A stretch of DNA of 48,715 nucleotides from Clostridia bacterium (lineage in GTDB: Bacteria; Bacillota; Clostridia; Oscillospirales; Acutalibacteraceae). Made by a program: the position numbers and the translations under genes. The notes under the pieces are model-generated. The model saw only the letters and a list, made by a program, of their open reading frames with translations. It did no database searches and was not told the origin of the DNA. The stretch is from positions 1 through 48,715 of the forward strand of contig JAFQBE010000016.1 in assembly GCA_017416765.1 (NCBI GenBank), written 5' to 3'. Below are positions 23,624-27,762 of this stretch, piece by piece (the first letter of the stretch is position 1; each line of letters starts with the position of its first letter).

Positions 23624-24973
23624 CTAAATTAAAAATGCCTTTGCAAGTGCGAAATAAATAACAAGGGTAACAATATCTACGAGTGTTGCAATCATCGGAC
23701 CTGCCATAAGTGCAGGGTCAAGCTTTACTATCTTTGCAAAAATAGGAAGCGAGCAGCCGATGAGCTTTGAAACGATAATTGCTATAAGCATTGCAAGCGA
23801 AACAACAAGAAAAACTTCAATTGTGCCTTCGCTGAAAAAGTACATTCGTATTATATTGGCTGTTGCAAGCACAAGACCGCATACTGCGGAAACACGAAGC
23901 TCTTTTAAAACAATTTTAAAGTAATCCTTTATTTCAATTTCGCCCACTGCAAGTCCGCGGATAATAAGCGTTGAAACCTGGCTGCCTGCGTTACCTGCCG
24001 TACCCATTAGCATGGGCATTGACGCAGTCAACGCAACAAAGCCCGAAAGCAACGCTTCATATCCTTCTATAATCATGCCTGTAAATGTGCCGGAAATCAT
24101 CAGGATAAGCAGCCACAGAATTCTGTTCTTTGCAAGCTTGAATATGCCGGTTTTCAGATATTCATCGTCTGACGGGGTCATAGCCGCCATTTTTTCAAAG
24201 TCTTCCGTTACTTCTTCTTCAATAACGTCAACAACGTCGTCAATAGTAATGATACCGACAAGGCGGTTTTCGTTATCGGTAACGGGTACGCTCAAAAGGT
24301 CATACTTGCGTACAATGTCGGCAACATATTCCTGGTCATCAAGCGTGTTAACGCTGATTAGGGATGCAGCATCTTCCATTATTTCGGAAAGCAGAGTGCT
24401 GTCTTCGTTAAATATAAGCTCGCTCAAGCCTATCGTGCCGACAAGGTGACGCGCCTTATCAATACAGTAACAGGTGTAAATAGTTTCTTTATCAATACCT
24501 GTTCTGCGTATGTTTTCTATTGCCTGCGCCACGGTTAAATTGTCATGCAGCTGTACCATTTCAATGGTCATCATGCTGCCGGCGCTGTTTTCCGGGTAGC
24601 TTAAAAAGCGGTTTATAAGCTGACGGGTTTCCTTATCCGCGTTCTTTAAAACACGGGTGACAACATTTGCCGGAACTTCTTCAAGGAAGTCCACAGTATC
24701 GTCAAGGAAAAGCTCGTCAACAAGTTCGCTGAGCTCGCGGTCGGTAATCGAGTTAACAACATTCATCTGGTCATCGGGTTCAAGGTAGGCAAAAACCTCT
24801 GCCGAAATATCCTTGGGAAGTATGCGGAAAACCAGTAATTGCTGTTTTTGTTCAAGCTCGCCGAAAAATTCAGCTATATCAACTTCGTTGAGTTCGGAAA
24901 GCTCGGATTTTAGTGTGCCGAATTTGCCTGCTTCAAGCAGCTCAAAGAGAAATTCAAAGTTCTTCTCGTCCAT
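23624..24973 (-). CDS. mgtE: Magnesium transporter MgtE
   Basis: A 449-residue Mg2+ channel/transporter. Residues 1 to about 130 are the acidic helical N domain, 130-255 hold a CBS pair (VPVTDNENRLVGIITIDDVV) that senses internal Mg2+, and 285-449 form five membrane helices including the pore signature TAGNAGSQVSTLIIRG. Length and layout are normal. Its ribosome binding site (GGAAAGGG on the minus strand) lies in the 3' arm of a terminator hairpin ending just before the ATG, so both transcription and translation may be controlled. GH13 follows in the same operon. Confidence 0.95.
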   Translation of the reverse strand: MDEKNFEFLFELLEAGKFGTLKSELSELNEVDIAEFFGELEQKQQLLVFRILPKDISAEVFAYLEPDDQMNVVNSITDRELSELVDELFLDDTVDFLEEVPANVVTRVLKNADKETRQLINRFLSYPENSAGSMMTIEMVQLHDNLTVAQAIENIRRTGIDKETIYTCYCIDKARHLVGTIGLSELIFNEDSTLLSEIMEDAASLISVNTLDDQEYVADIVRKYDLLSVPVTDNENRLVGIITIDDVVDVIEEEVTEDFEKMAAMTPSDDEYLKTGIFKLAKNRILWLLILMISGTFTGMIIEGYEALLSGFVALTASMPMLMGTAGNAGSQVSTLIIRGLAVGEIEIKDYFKIVLKELRVSAVCGLVLATANIIRMYFFSEGTIEVFLVVSLAMLIAIIVSKLIGCSLPIFAKIVKLDPALMAGPMIATLVDIVTLVIYFALAKAFLI

Positions 24974-25017
24974 AAAAAATGCCCTTTCCGCTTGTTCGCT
25001 TCAAGCAGAAAGGGCAT
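24974..25017 (-). terminator. Attenuator-like terminator burying the mgtE ribosome binding site
   Basis: On the minus strand ATGCCCTTTCTGCTTG pairs with CAAGCGGAAAGGGCAT (one mismatch) around a 7-base loop, followed by six Ts and then the mgtE ATG. The GGAAAGGG in the 3' arm is eight bases from the ATG and is the only ribosome binding site available. Confidence 0.85.
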
Positions 25018-25034
25018 AGCTGACTAAACGGTTC

Positions 25035-25142
25035 TCAATCCCTTACGGGTGCAAGGAGACCGTGGTTACTTCTGCAAGCAACGAAAAGCTGTTTTGTTTT
25101 AAAATGTGAGCAACATAAAGGTATGCTGTCCTTACTGTCCAA
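25035..25142 (-). promoter_or_regulatory. Leader ORF (35 codons) upstream of mgtE
   Basis: A TTG nine bases after AAGGAGG opens a 35-codon frame closed by TGA, lying between the mgtE promoter and terminator. The peptide begins M-D-S-K-D-S-I-P and contains Cys at 10, 11 and 23; no long run of one amino acid is seen. The codons around residues 22-25 contain GCAGAA, which could pair with TTCTGC in the 5' arm of the terminator and act as antiterminator. Ribosome position on this frame could thus control mgtE. It could instead be chance coding within a structured RNA; no M-box landmarks were found. Confidence 0.45.
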
Positions 25143-25187
25143 AACAGTTTGCCTCCTTTTTTGAGAAAATATCTTAAAGATATTTAA

Positions 25188-25216
25188 ATATTAGGCTTTT
25201 TATTCAGTTTTGTCAA
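25188..25216 (-). promoter_or_regulatory. Sigma-A promoter of the mgtE leader
   Basis: On the minus strand TTGACA (25211-25216), 17 bases, TAATAT (25188-25193). The -35 overlaps the last codons of glgP. The transcript would carry a leader of about 205 bases before the mgtE ATG. Confidence 0.85.
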
Positions 25217-27708
25217 GATTTTTTTGCTGTTTTAGCCTTGCTTTTTGCGGGAGCCTTGGCTTTGGGCTTATCGCCAGCCTTGGCTTTCGCTTTGGGAGCT
25301 TCGGGTTTTACAACGGGAGCGGTGTGCCAGATGTTGGCGGCATATTCGTTTATAGCTCTGTCAGCGGCAAATACACCCGCACCGGAAATATTCATAAGCG
25401 ACATCTGGTTCCACTTTTTACGGTCTGCCCAGAGCTTATCAATTTCAAGCTGTGCCTTGCGGTAATCGGCAAAATCTGCAAGAACCATGTAGGGGTCGTG
25501 GTGGATAATACTTGCACTTACATCGGGGAACTGCTTGCCGTTTATTCCCTTGCTGATAAAGTCAACAACCTTGCGGATTTCCGCATTGTTTTCATAGTAG
25601 GTGTGGGGATTGTAGTTTGGCTTGAGTGCGTTTACTTCGGGCGTTCTCATGCCGAAAATAACAATATTATCTTCACCTACGGCGTCGTGGATTTCAATGT
25701 TTGCGCCGTCCATTGTGCCGAGCGTAATTGCACCGTTTAGCATAAGCTTCATGTTGCCTGTACCGCTGGCTTCTGTGCCTGCAAGCGAAATCTGTTCGCT
25801 GATATCTGCGGCGGGCATAAGTGTTTCAGCCATAGTTACATTGTAATCTTCAACGAATACAACTTTAAGTCTGCCCCTTACATCGGGGTCATTGTTTACA
25901 AGGTTTGCAAATTCGCAGATAAAGTTGATTATACGCTTTGCAACAATGTAACCGGGTGCAGCTTTGGCGGCAAATATATAGGTGTGCGGTACGAAATCGC
26001 CATCGGGATTTTCCTTGATTGCAAGGTAACGGGAAACAATCTGAAGTGCATTGAGATGCTGACGCTTGTATTCGTGCAGACGCTTTACCTGCACATCGAA
26101 TATTGAATTCGGGTCAAGCTCAATACCTTGTTTTTGTTTGATAAGCTTTGCAAAACGCTGCTTGTTGGCAAACTTGATTTTTTCAAGTTTTTCAAGCACT
26201 TCGTCATTATCTTTATAGTCGCGCAGTCTGAGCAGTTCGTCACCGTTATAGGTGAAACCGTCGCCGATAAGTGAGGTGAGGTATTCTGTAAGCTCGGGGT
26301 TGGACTGGTTGAGCCAGCGGCGGTGTGCAATACCGTTTGTTACATTGGTGAATTTTTCGGGTGTGAGTTTATAGAAATCATTAAAAACAGTATCCTTGAG
26401 AATCTGGCTGTGAAGCGCGGAAACGCCGTTTACTGTGTGGCAGGCTGCGACGCAAAGGTTAGCCATGCGGATGCTGCCGCCGGAAATGACAGCTGTACGC
26501 TCAACATAATCGGCATCGTAGGTTGATGACCATACATATGAGCGGTAGCGGTTGTCAATTTCCTTGGTAATCTGATAAATGCGGGGGATAAGACGCTTAA
26601 ACAGCTCTTCGCTCCAGCATTCAAGTGCTTCCTTCATAACCGTATGGTTTGTGTAAGCACAGGTCTGCGATACAATTCGCCATGCATCGTCCCAGCCGTA
26701 GCCGCATTCATCAAGGAATATGCGCATAAGCTCGGGGATAGCGAGGGTCGGGTGAGTATCGTTAATGTGGATTGCGTTCTTTTCGGCAAAGTTTTCGATT
26801 GAGCCGTAGGTACGCAGATGGCGTGCAACAATATCCTGAATTGAAGCGGAAACAAGGAAATACTGCTGCTTTAAGCGCAGGCTCTTGCCCTCATAATGGT
26901 TGTCGGAGGGGTAGAGTACCTTGCTGATAACCTCTGCCATAGCGTTCTGCTCAAGGGCTTTGAGGTAATTGCCCTGGTTGAAATTTTCCATATCAAAGCC
27001 GGGTGCTTTTGCAGACCACAGACGAAGCACGCTGACAGCCTTGCCATCCTTACCGGGAACAAAAAGGTCGTAGGGTACAGCCTGAATAGGTGTGTAATCC
27101 TTTAATTCTACATGGTGGTAGTGAGTATCCCAGAAATCTTCAACCCAGCCTTCAAAGCGGATTTCCTGCGCACTTTCAGGACGCTCTACAAGATGTGCTT
27201 CGCCGCCGGGAAGCCAGAAATCGGGCAGCTCAGTCTGCCAGCCTTCAATGATTTTCTGCTTGAATATACCGTATTCGTAAAGAATGGAGTAGCCCATGCC
27301 GTTGTAGCCCTGCGTTGCAAGTCCGTCAAGGTAGCATGCGGCAAGTCTGCCGAGGCCGCCGTTGCCCAGGCCTGCATCGGGTTCGCAGTCAAAAAGCTTG
27401 TCGAGCTTGATGCCGAAGGAGGAAAGAGCCTTTTCCATTGTAGATGTAAGGTTAAGGTTGAAAAGATTATTTTTAAGGGAACGGCCCATAAGGAATTCCA
27501 TAGAAAGGTAGTATACTTTTTTGGTATCAGTCTTTTTAGATTCCTTTGCGAATTCTGCCCTGCCCTTTGTGAGCATATCCCTTACAACCATTGCTACTGC
27601 TTTGTAGTAGTGTTCGTAAGTAGCCTCTTCGGGTGTTACGCCGAAAAAGTGTGAAAGTTTATTTGATATAAGCTCCTTTGCTTGAGCTGTAGTTAATGAG
27701 TAATTCAT
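25213..27708 (-). CDS. glgP: Glycogen/starch phosphorylase
   Basis: An 831-residue GT35 enzyme that releases glucose-1-phosphate from alpha-1,4-glucans using pyridoxal phosphate. The family signature EASGTGNMKLMLNGA holds the PLP lysine. Other landmarks are GLGNGGLGRLAACYLDGLATQ and KRLHEYKRQHLNAL. The ATG at 27708 begins M-N-Y-S-L-T-T; eight upstream residues in frame lack support. The last 25 or so residues are an Ala/Lys/Pro-rich tail (KAKAKAGDKPKAKAPAKSK) unlike ordinary phosphorylases, perhaps a glucan-, RNA- or membrane-binding tail. It has its own promoter; no terminator is seen before the mgtE promoter overlapping its end. Confidence 0.95.
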   Translation of the reverse strand: MNYSLTTAQAKELISNKLSHFFGVTPEEATYEHYYKAVAMVVRDMLTKGRAEFAKESKKTDTKKVYYLSMEFLMGRSLKNNLFNLNLTSTMEKALSSFGIKLDKLFDCEPDAGLGNGGLGRLAACYLDGLATQGYNGMGYSILYEYGIFKQKIIEGWQTELPDFWLPGGEAHLVERPESAQEIRFEGWVEDFWDTHYHHVELKDYTPIQAVPYDLFVPGKDGKAVSVLRLWSAKAPGFDMENFNQGNYLKALEQNAMAEVISKVLYPSDNHYEGKSLRLKQQYFLVSASIQDIVARHLRTYGSIENFAEKNAIHINDTHPTLAIPELMRIFLDECGYGWDDAWRIVSQTCAYTNHTVMKEALECWSEELFKRLIPRIYQITKEIDNRYRSYVWSSTYDADYVERTAVISGGSIRMANLCVAACHTVNGVSALHSQILKDTVFNDFYKLTPEKFTNVTNGIAHRRWLNQSNPELTEYLTSLIGDGFTYNGDELLRLRDYKDNDEVLEKLEKIKFANKQRFAKLIKQKQGIELDPNSIFDVQVKRLHEYKRQHLNALQIVSRYLAIKENPDGDFVPHTYIFAAKAAPGYIVAKRIINFICEFANLVNNDPDVRGRLKVVFVEDYNVTMAETLMPAADISEQISLAGTEASGTGNMKLMLNGAITLGTMDGANIEIHDAVGEDNIVIFGMRTPEVNALKPNYNPHTYYENNAEIRKVVDFISKGINGKQFPDVSASIIHHDPYMVLADFADYRKAQLEIDKLWADRKKWNQMSLMNISGAGVFAADRAINEYAANIWHTAPVVKPEAPKAKAKAGDKPKAKAPAKSKAKTAKKS

Positions 27709-27762
27709 ACAAAACCCCCAAAATCTTCTCAAAATAAGCTGTTTTTTTGAGATTTTTTATAT

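Follow-up and report, generated by a model that had tools for sequence, protein, structure and literature searches.

A probable leader-peptide attenuator upstream of mgtE in a member of the Acutalibacteraceae and related leaders of Mg2+ importers in Clostridia

How might the synthesis of a Mg2+ importer be adjusted in a bacterium whose importer gene is preceded by no M-box? The M-box (RF00380) is a direct Mg2+-binding RNA that controls mgtE, mgtA and corA. The question is raised by the mgtE leader (minus strand, 24974-25216) in a stretch of 48,715 nucleotides from a gut Clostridia bacterium of the Acutalibacteraceae, referred to here as the window. The encoded importer is the single match to PF01769 in the window genome, and no MgtA was found in that genome at E 1e-180. 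An M-box or another described RNA family was considered at this leader and rejected: no Rfam match over the gathering threshold was obtained within the window, no plausible M-box match was obtained for positions 24900-25300 at E values up to 10, and RF00380 had no match in the window genome under strict filters, which agrees with the absence of M-box landmarks stated in the initial annotation. The M-box was likewise absent from 20 named mgtE loci that were scanned. The analysis described below suggests that the mgtE leader is probably a translation-dependent transcription attenuator, with low Mg2+ as its most likely signal.

The features of the locus are collected in Table 1. The TTGACA-17-TAATAT promoter, the AAGGAGG-led TTG ORF of 35 codons and the terminator touching the mgtE start codon, all described in the initial annotation, were found in the sequence as stated, and the leader length deduced from the predicted promoter is about 205 nucleotides. 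The burial of the mgtE ribosome binding site was confirmed as well, since the Shine-Dalgarno (SD)-like stretch GGAAAGGG lies within the 3' arm of the terminator, the T run of which adjoins the ATG (24973-24971). Four promoter-like sites were counted in 601 bases compared with a mean of 0.6 in shuffled sequences, and by reading of the sequences TTGACA with a TAAAAT-like -10 element is also present in the relatives L003-L007 and L009 and absent from L008. In the latter relative, the promoter and helix P1 are swapped for unrelated sequence and the leader is kept from AAAGGAGG on, as would result from an exchange of the upstream part. The -35 element of the window (25211-25216) overlaps the TGA stop codon of an upstream glycogen phosphorylase-like gene (25213-27732, minus strand); transcription of that gene might therefore continue into the mgtE leader. 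Shuffled sequences contain 1.0 terminator-like site on average, so the presence of a terminator alone is not significant; its 12 compared pairs are formed in all eight aligned relatives, and two of the 12 are changed on both sides. The fold of the whole leader is more stable than that of 200 out of 200 dinucleotide shuffles (z -5.28).

Table 1. Features of the mgtE locus in the window, with the predicted alternative structures of the leader
Feature	Positions	Strand	Description
mgtE	23624-24973	-	449 aa Mg2+ importer; MgtE_N, CBS and MgtE domains
Promoter TTGACA-17-TAATAT	25188-25216	-	-35 at 25216-25211, -10 at 25193-25188
Leader ORF Shine-Dalgarno AAGGAGG	25152-25158	-	read from the sequence
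Leader ORF	25035-25142	-	TTG (25142-25140), 35 codons, TGA (25037-25035); peptide MDSKDSIPLCCSHFKTKQLFVACRSNHGLLAPVRD
Terminator	24974-25017	-	stem 25017-24979, 16 pairs; T run ends at 24974
Helix P1	25032-25167	-	25167-25161 with 25038-25032, closes P2; predicted fold; absent from L008
Helix P2	25055-25156	-	leader SD GGAGGC (25156-25151) with anti-SD GUCUCC (25060-25055); predicted fold
Helix P3	25089-25147	-	25147-25141 with 25095-25089; covers leader start codon; predicted fold, invariant
Hairpin P-alt	25028-25063	-	25063-25056 with 25036-25028; incompatible with P1 and P2
Antiterminator 5' strand	25069-25089	-	leader codons about 18-25; predicted
Antiterminator 3' strand	24990-25012	-	terminator 5' arm, loop and start of 3' arm; predicted

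The predicted alternative structures give the leader the layout of an attenuator: within the genus, an intrinsic terminator precedes the gene, and an antiterminator that excludes the terminator has one of its strands inside the leader ORF. It had been proposed that a GCAGAA stretch in the ORF pairs with TTCTGC in the terminator 5' arm. The complementarity is real and forms part of the predicted antiterminator in the window genome; as a conserved switch it was rejected, because it is an extension found in the window genome and is not kept in relatives. The conserved part lies beside it and consists of GC and two bases following P3, which are paired with the loop and the 3' arm of the terminator. 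In the eight-sequence alignment of the genus, two of the four pairs of this antiterminator core and three of the eight pairs of P-alt are changed on both sides. Taken together, five of the 12 pairs are so changed. All 148 cells of the tested structure pair, compared with 25-51% when the partners were slid. The covariation score exceeded that of 500 out of 500 shuffles; in the same eight rows, the count of doubly changed pairs was reached by 50 of the 500 shuffles and the count of pair types by 353, and neither stands out. The bases of the 3' strand of the core answer to two partners, as this strand doubles as the loop or 3' arm of the terminator. P2 is paired in all eight genus rows, and P2, P3 and P3b hardly vary and thus provide little evidence; complements of the SD are enriched across the leader family.

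The antiterminator duplex was stronger than the shuffled mean in 10 out of 10 leaders, with p ≤0.05 in six. Outside the genus, none of the eight leaders of the MGSSD group gave a significant duplex energy (p 0.06-0.78); of six other leaders, only L077 did, with p below 0.005. When the ORF start was blocked as by a ribosome and the transcript was cut before closure of the terminator, the antiterminator was predicted to fold in all eight sequences. In unblocked transcripts, P2 wins over the antiterminator only in the window and in L009 and loses in the other six of the eight. Full-length transcripts fold with the terminator in ten sequences; hence, control must act during transcription. The suggestion that the position of the ribosome flips the structure is thus supported by folds, duplex energies and covariation within the genus.

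Whether such an ORF precedes mgtE in other genomes was assessed with 149 upstream regions, comprising 29 of 30 loci (the 30th begins at a contig end) and 120 further stretches drawn among the matches listed (158 of 295 genomes with a match). In 96 of the 149, an SD-led ORF was present whose second codon specifies Asp or Glu. With the same filter applied to regions with at least 330 nucleotides upstream and the ORF within 350 nucleotides, the count was 94 of 147, compared with a mean of 4.35 and a maximum of 9 in 20 shuffled sets and with two in the reverse complement. Fifteen other classes of second codon gave 1-10 ORFs each in these 147 regions, so that the GA class dominates. The remaining 53 regions lack an Asp/Glu leader ORF by the filter; L016 and L024 have leaders outside it when judged by eye, and others, such as L020, which carries none, seemingly have no leader. 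Among named mgtE loci, which overlap the unnamed set and include records named Lachnospiraceae, Oscillospiraceae and Sedimentibacter, 77 had sufficient sequence and 61 of these satisfy a somewhat broader filter, L103 and L089 being among the few doubtful cases. A DNA search of 300 genomes of the family with the window leader gave strong matches in the genus only and weak, short ones elsewhere, and seven leader peptides had no match in NCBIfam or Pfam.

Several individual loci of this survey have peculiarities of their own. The region of L022 was rejected as a leader as it sits within a longer open frame; the mgtE frame there (G035:C52:6549-8567) has 728 amino acids, with extra N-terminal domain repeats (three additional partial matches). 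In L102, L128 and L130, the leader ORF is overlapped in a different frame by a shorter ORF (MRSKYENGQ-like) with its own SD. Leaders of the MGSSD group (L067-L075) have, besides the hairpin overlapping the mgtE start, a further hairpin with a T-rich tail downstream of the leader ORF.

The leader peptides of the genus begin with MDSKDSIPLCC (in one case MDSKDNIPLCC) or MDGADSIPLRC, and those of relatives are of the types MDxxDGSR, MDAGSSxG..GRS, MDICGRSTKMDSDIHL, MEGRSRKMEADAHPEP, MDDGGRSMSADGVPRS and MGSSDIPNPRSR. The acidic start to which the initial annotation had drawn attention holds in the genus, where Asp2 and Asp5 are present in the window leader and in 10 out of 10 leaders compared; it is not general at position 5, as many distant leaders keep an acidic residue at position 2 only. 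In ungapped N-terminal codons, pN/pS ranged from 0.09 to 0.89 and was below 1 in all 15 overlapping groups; in 13 of these the reading frame had the lowest value, the exceptions holding two or three sequences. For the genus, it was 0.46 in frame compared with 1.08 and 1.11 in the other frames. With the exception of the genus, the groups were assembled according to similarity of the peptides, and pN is thereby biased downward in the ungapped test as well as in pairwise pN/pS on MAFFT peptide alignments. In the latter, frame 0 was lowest in 11 of 15 sets; that version favours frame 0 by construction, and the ungapped test was therefore preferred. In most groups only some 10-18 N-terminal residues are conserved and the C-terminal parts diverge; the genus is near-invariant over codons 1-18. 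The N-terminal codons of the leader thus look selected for the peptide, judging from these comparisons. Conservation of the ORF in homologous leaders, on which the first reading had been made to depend, was accordingly found, together with signs of selection at the codon level, and no known riboswitch emerged over threshold from Rfam.

The occurrence of the leader ORF together with mgtA and with M-boxes strengthens the case for a link to Mg2+. Upstream of mgtA, which encodes an unrelated Mg2+ ATPase, an SD-led Asp/Glu ORF was found in 13 of 29 regions (from 30 loci, one being too partial); shuffled regions gave 1-6 and the other second codons 0-5. Some single cases may be chance. M-box matches were obtained in only 24 of 295 sampled relatives with strict filters. 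Among 20 mgtE loci scanned, an M-box was present in 14, all of which had been selected on the basis of a prior M-box scan; a leader ORF was present in seven of the 14, always between the M-box and the gene, so the idea that M-box and leader ORF are mutually exclusive proved wrong. Of 20 mgtA loci scanned among the 29, five had an M-box and four of the five a leader. A search of 295 genomes with a pattern for the MDAG type of leader gave 31 hits, and the reversed pattern gave none. Judged by position or by reading, 21 of these hits are followed by a listed mgtE and a further one by an mgtE-like frame (L268); three (L264, L265, L266) follow M-boxes and precede Mg2+-ATPase sequence; four (L267, L269, L270, L271) are coding or unrelated sequence; and the two others are G371 and G408. 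The downstream genes of L264 and L266 pass TIGR01524 and NF011702, and that of L265 is a short open frame judged by eye. L265 combines an M-box and the MDAGSSNGIKPGGRSRG leader with a seemingly truncated MgtA frame of about 200 amino acids; no mgtE match was obtained in that genome at E 1e-60. Across Clostridia, related leaders serve importers of both the MgtE and the MgtA kind, in some cases downstream of an M-box.

For the window leader, the sequence comparisons support an ORF with constraint at the peptide level, a terminator that encloses the ribosome binding site of mgtE and an antiterminator exclusive with that terminator. In the proposed attenuator, a ribosome would initiate on the ORF and then pause or fall off within about the first ten codons, which would leave the antiterminator strand free and allow RNA polymerase to read into mgtE. 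A ribosome reading on would instead cover the antiterminator strand or the P-alt hairpin while the terminator emerges, and transcription would stop. When no ribosome is loaded, pairing of the leader SD with its anti-SD may shut the leader, a state favoured in the window genome and one relative but not in six others. Low Mg2+ would weaken ribosomes early on the peptide (Asp2, Asp5 and some uncommon codons), as reported for MgtL and MgtQ; it is by analogy with these systems that we infer the signal, the drop-off and the direction of the switch.

Uncommon codons are conspicuous in leaders whose first 22 residues include an xRS motif. In 77 such leaders, Arg is encoded by CGA in 69 and Ser by AGT in 66, and CGAAGT is present in 62. 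The mgtE genes of 43 such named loci use CGA for 4.3% of 846 Arg codons and AGT for 10.2% of 884 Ser codons, compared with CGA in 40 and AGT in 41 of the 43 leaders of the same loci; binomial values for this bias overstate it, as the leader sequences are related. AGT accounts for 141 of 220 Ser codons at codons 3-9 compared with 28 of 218 from codon 16 onward. The window's genus has no CGA-AGT, and its early AGT and TTA make up 7% of Ser and 7% of Leu codons, respectively, in six window genes. Base pairing was considered as the reason for CGA-AGT and rejected. Perfect downstream 7-mer complements to the SD region are in excess (10.8% compared with 3.2% at -10 to -6 and 5.3% compared with 2.2% at -5 to -1), and no such excess was found for the first leader codons. 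Motif-centred pairing scores were moderately above shuffles for CGAAGT (11.4 compared with 10.0, 43 of 68 higher), GACAGT (9.3 compared with 8.0, 17 of 28 higher) and AGTAGT (12.6 compared with 8.4, 11 of 17 higher), and some contribution of pairing to the fixation of CGA-AGT is possible.

The same codons could point to a signal other than Mg2+. The attenuator might respond to the uncommon codons themselves (CGA-AGT, AGT, TTA) or to tRNA shortage, an antibiotic or a general slowing of translation, with mgtE switched on because ribosome trouble calls for Mg2+. The strong fixation of CGA-AGT in Arg-Ser leaders in spite of its rarity in mgtE genes and the concentration of AGT in early Ser codons would fit such a signal. 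It is nevertheless considered unlikely, given that the leaders are associated with two unrelated Mg2+ importers and with M-boxes, that CGA-AGT is lacking in the window's genus and that the peptides contain no run of codons for one amino acid, as would mark an attenuator of the amino-acid type; the gene concerned is an ion importer.

The very stable, conserved fold, the near-invariance of codons 1-18 in the genus and the covariation of alternative helices could also be those of a novel riboswitch that binds Mg2+ or another ligand directly, the ORF being incidental or secondary. Recurrence of the ORF with unrelated RNA sequence in many groups, its reading-frame constraint and the lack of an excess of downstream 7-mers complementary to the first codons make this rather improbable. 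Alternatively, the ORF might make a functional small protein that is co-transcribed with Mg2+ importers, followed by an ordinary terminator. Constraint on the peptide and recurrence before two importer families are consistent with this; a small protein nevertheless appears very improbable, because in most groups conservation ends after some 10-18 residues, the motif is written with fixed synonymous codons and the genus ORF contains a covarying antiterminator strand.

Translation-dependent attenuation, the preferred reading, has counterparts among known leaders, which are compared here on the basis of the portions of the cited papers that were consulted. For MgtL of enterobacterial mgtA, it was reported that completed translation favours termination and that drop-off at EPDP in low Mg2+ allows expression (PMC11282234). 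MgtL shares with the window leader a short ORF before a Mg2+ importer and acidic residues among the first codons; it differs in its Rho-dependent terminator, whereas the window has an intrinsic terminator and an antiterminator encoded in the ORF, and the Clostridia peptide lacks EPDP and serves MgtE as well as MgtA. MgtQ of Salmonella mgtCBRU has the SD AGGAGG, needs Asp2 and Glu5, and alternative stems hide or free the ribosome binding site of the importer (PMC8092293). The window leader similarly has Asp2 and Asp5 and predicted alternative structures, one of which buries the importer's ribosome binding site. MgtQ has eight codons and acts on translation only, whereas the window has 35 codons and a transcription terminator. 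The Clostridia leaders thus have a short SD-led ORF with acidic early residues upstream of a Mg2+ importer, as in both systems, and by eye their peptides are short and unlike both.

The M-box differs in kind from these leaders; it can sit upstream of a leader ORF in the same transcripts, and it is absent from the window and the window genome. In mycobacteria, an M-box is followed by the conserved uORF rv1805A, reported as a switch product with an unclear role and with Rho-dependent termination (PMC12810186). The sharing of an M-box and a conserved short ORF is a partial precedent for the tandem, though the organisms differ. The SRC-65-1 motif also precedes mgtE; in the consulted part of its description, it is a riboswitch candidate confined to Thioalkalivibrio and not a leader ORF (PMC11109978). 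A survey of structured RNAs names a corA motif in the part consulted (PMC6429828). No report of these Clostridia leaders was found in the main texts of open-licence PMC articles among the matches listed, and the leaders are regarded as a variant of leader-peptide attenuation of Mg2+ importers.

As a tentative generalization, possible rather than probable, the leader peptides across Clostridia may constitute a second, ribosome-based Mg2+ sensor. It would act on two unrelated importers, either in parallel to the M-box or in series with it, and in most groups it would sense through a fixed uncommon codon pair, CGA-AGT, read with a very short nascent chain starting with Asp or Glu. Sensing through a fixed codon pair is a principle not described for MgtL or MgtQ in the material consulted, and such a pair makes codon-specific pausing or drop-off directly testable. 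Natural tandems of M-box and leader peptide would allow the sensing of the free ion to be told apart from that of the ribosome state in one transcript. If the reading is correct, ribosome-based Mg2+ sensing would be a layer of control in many gut Clostridia and not an enteric speciality.
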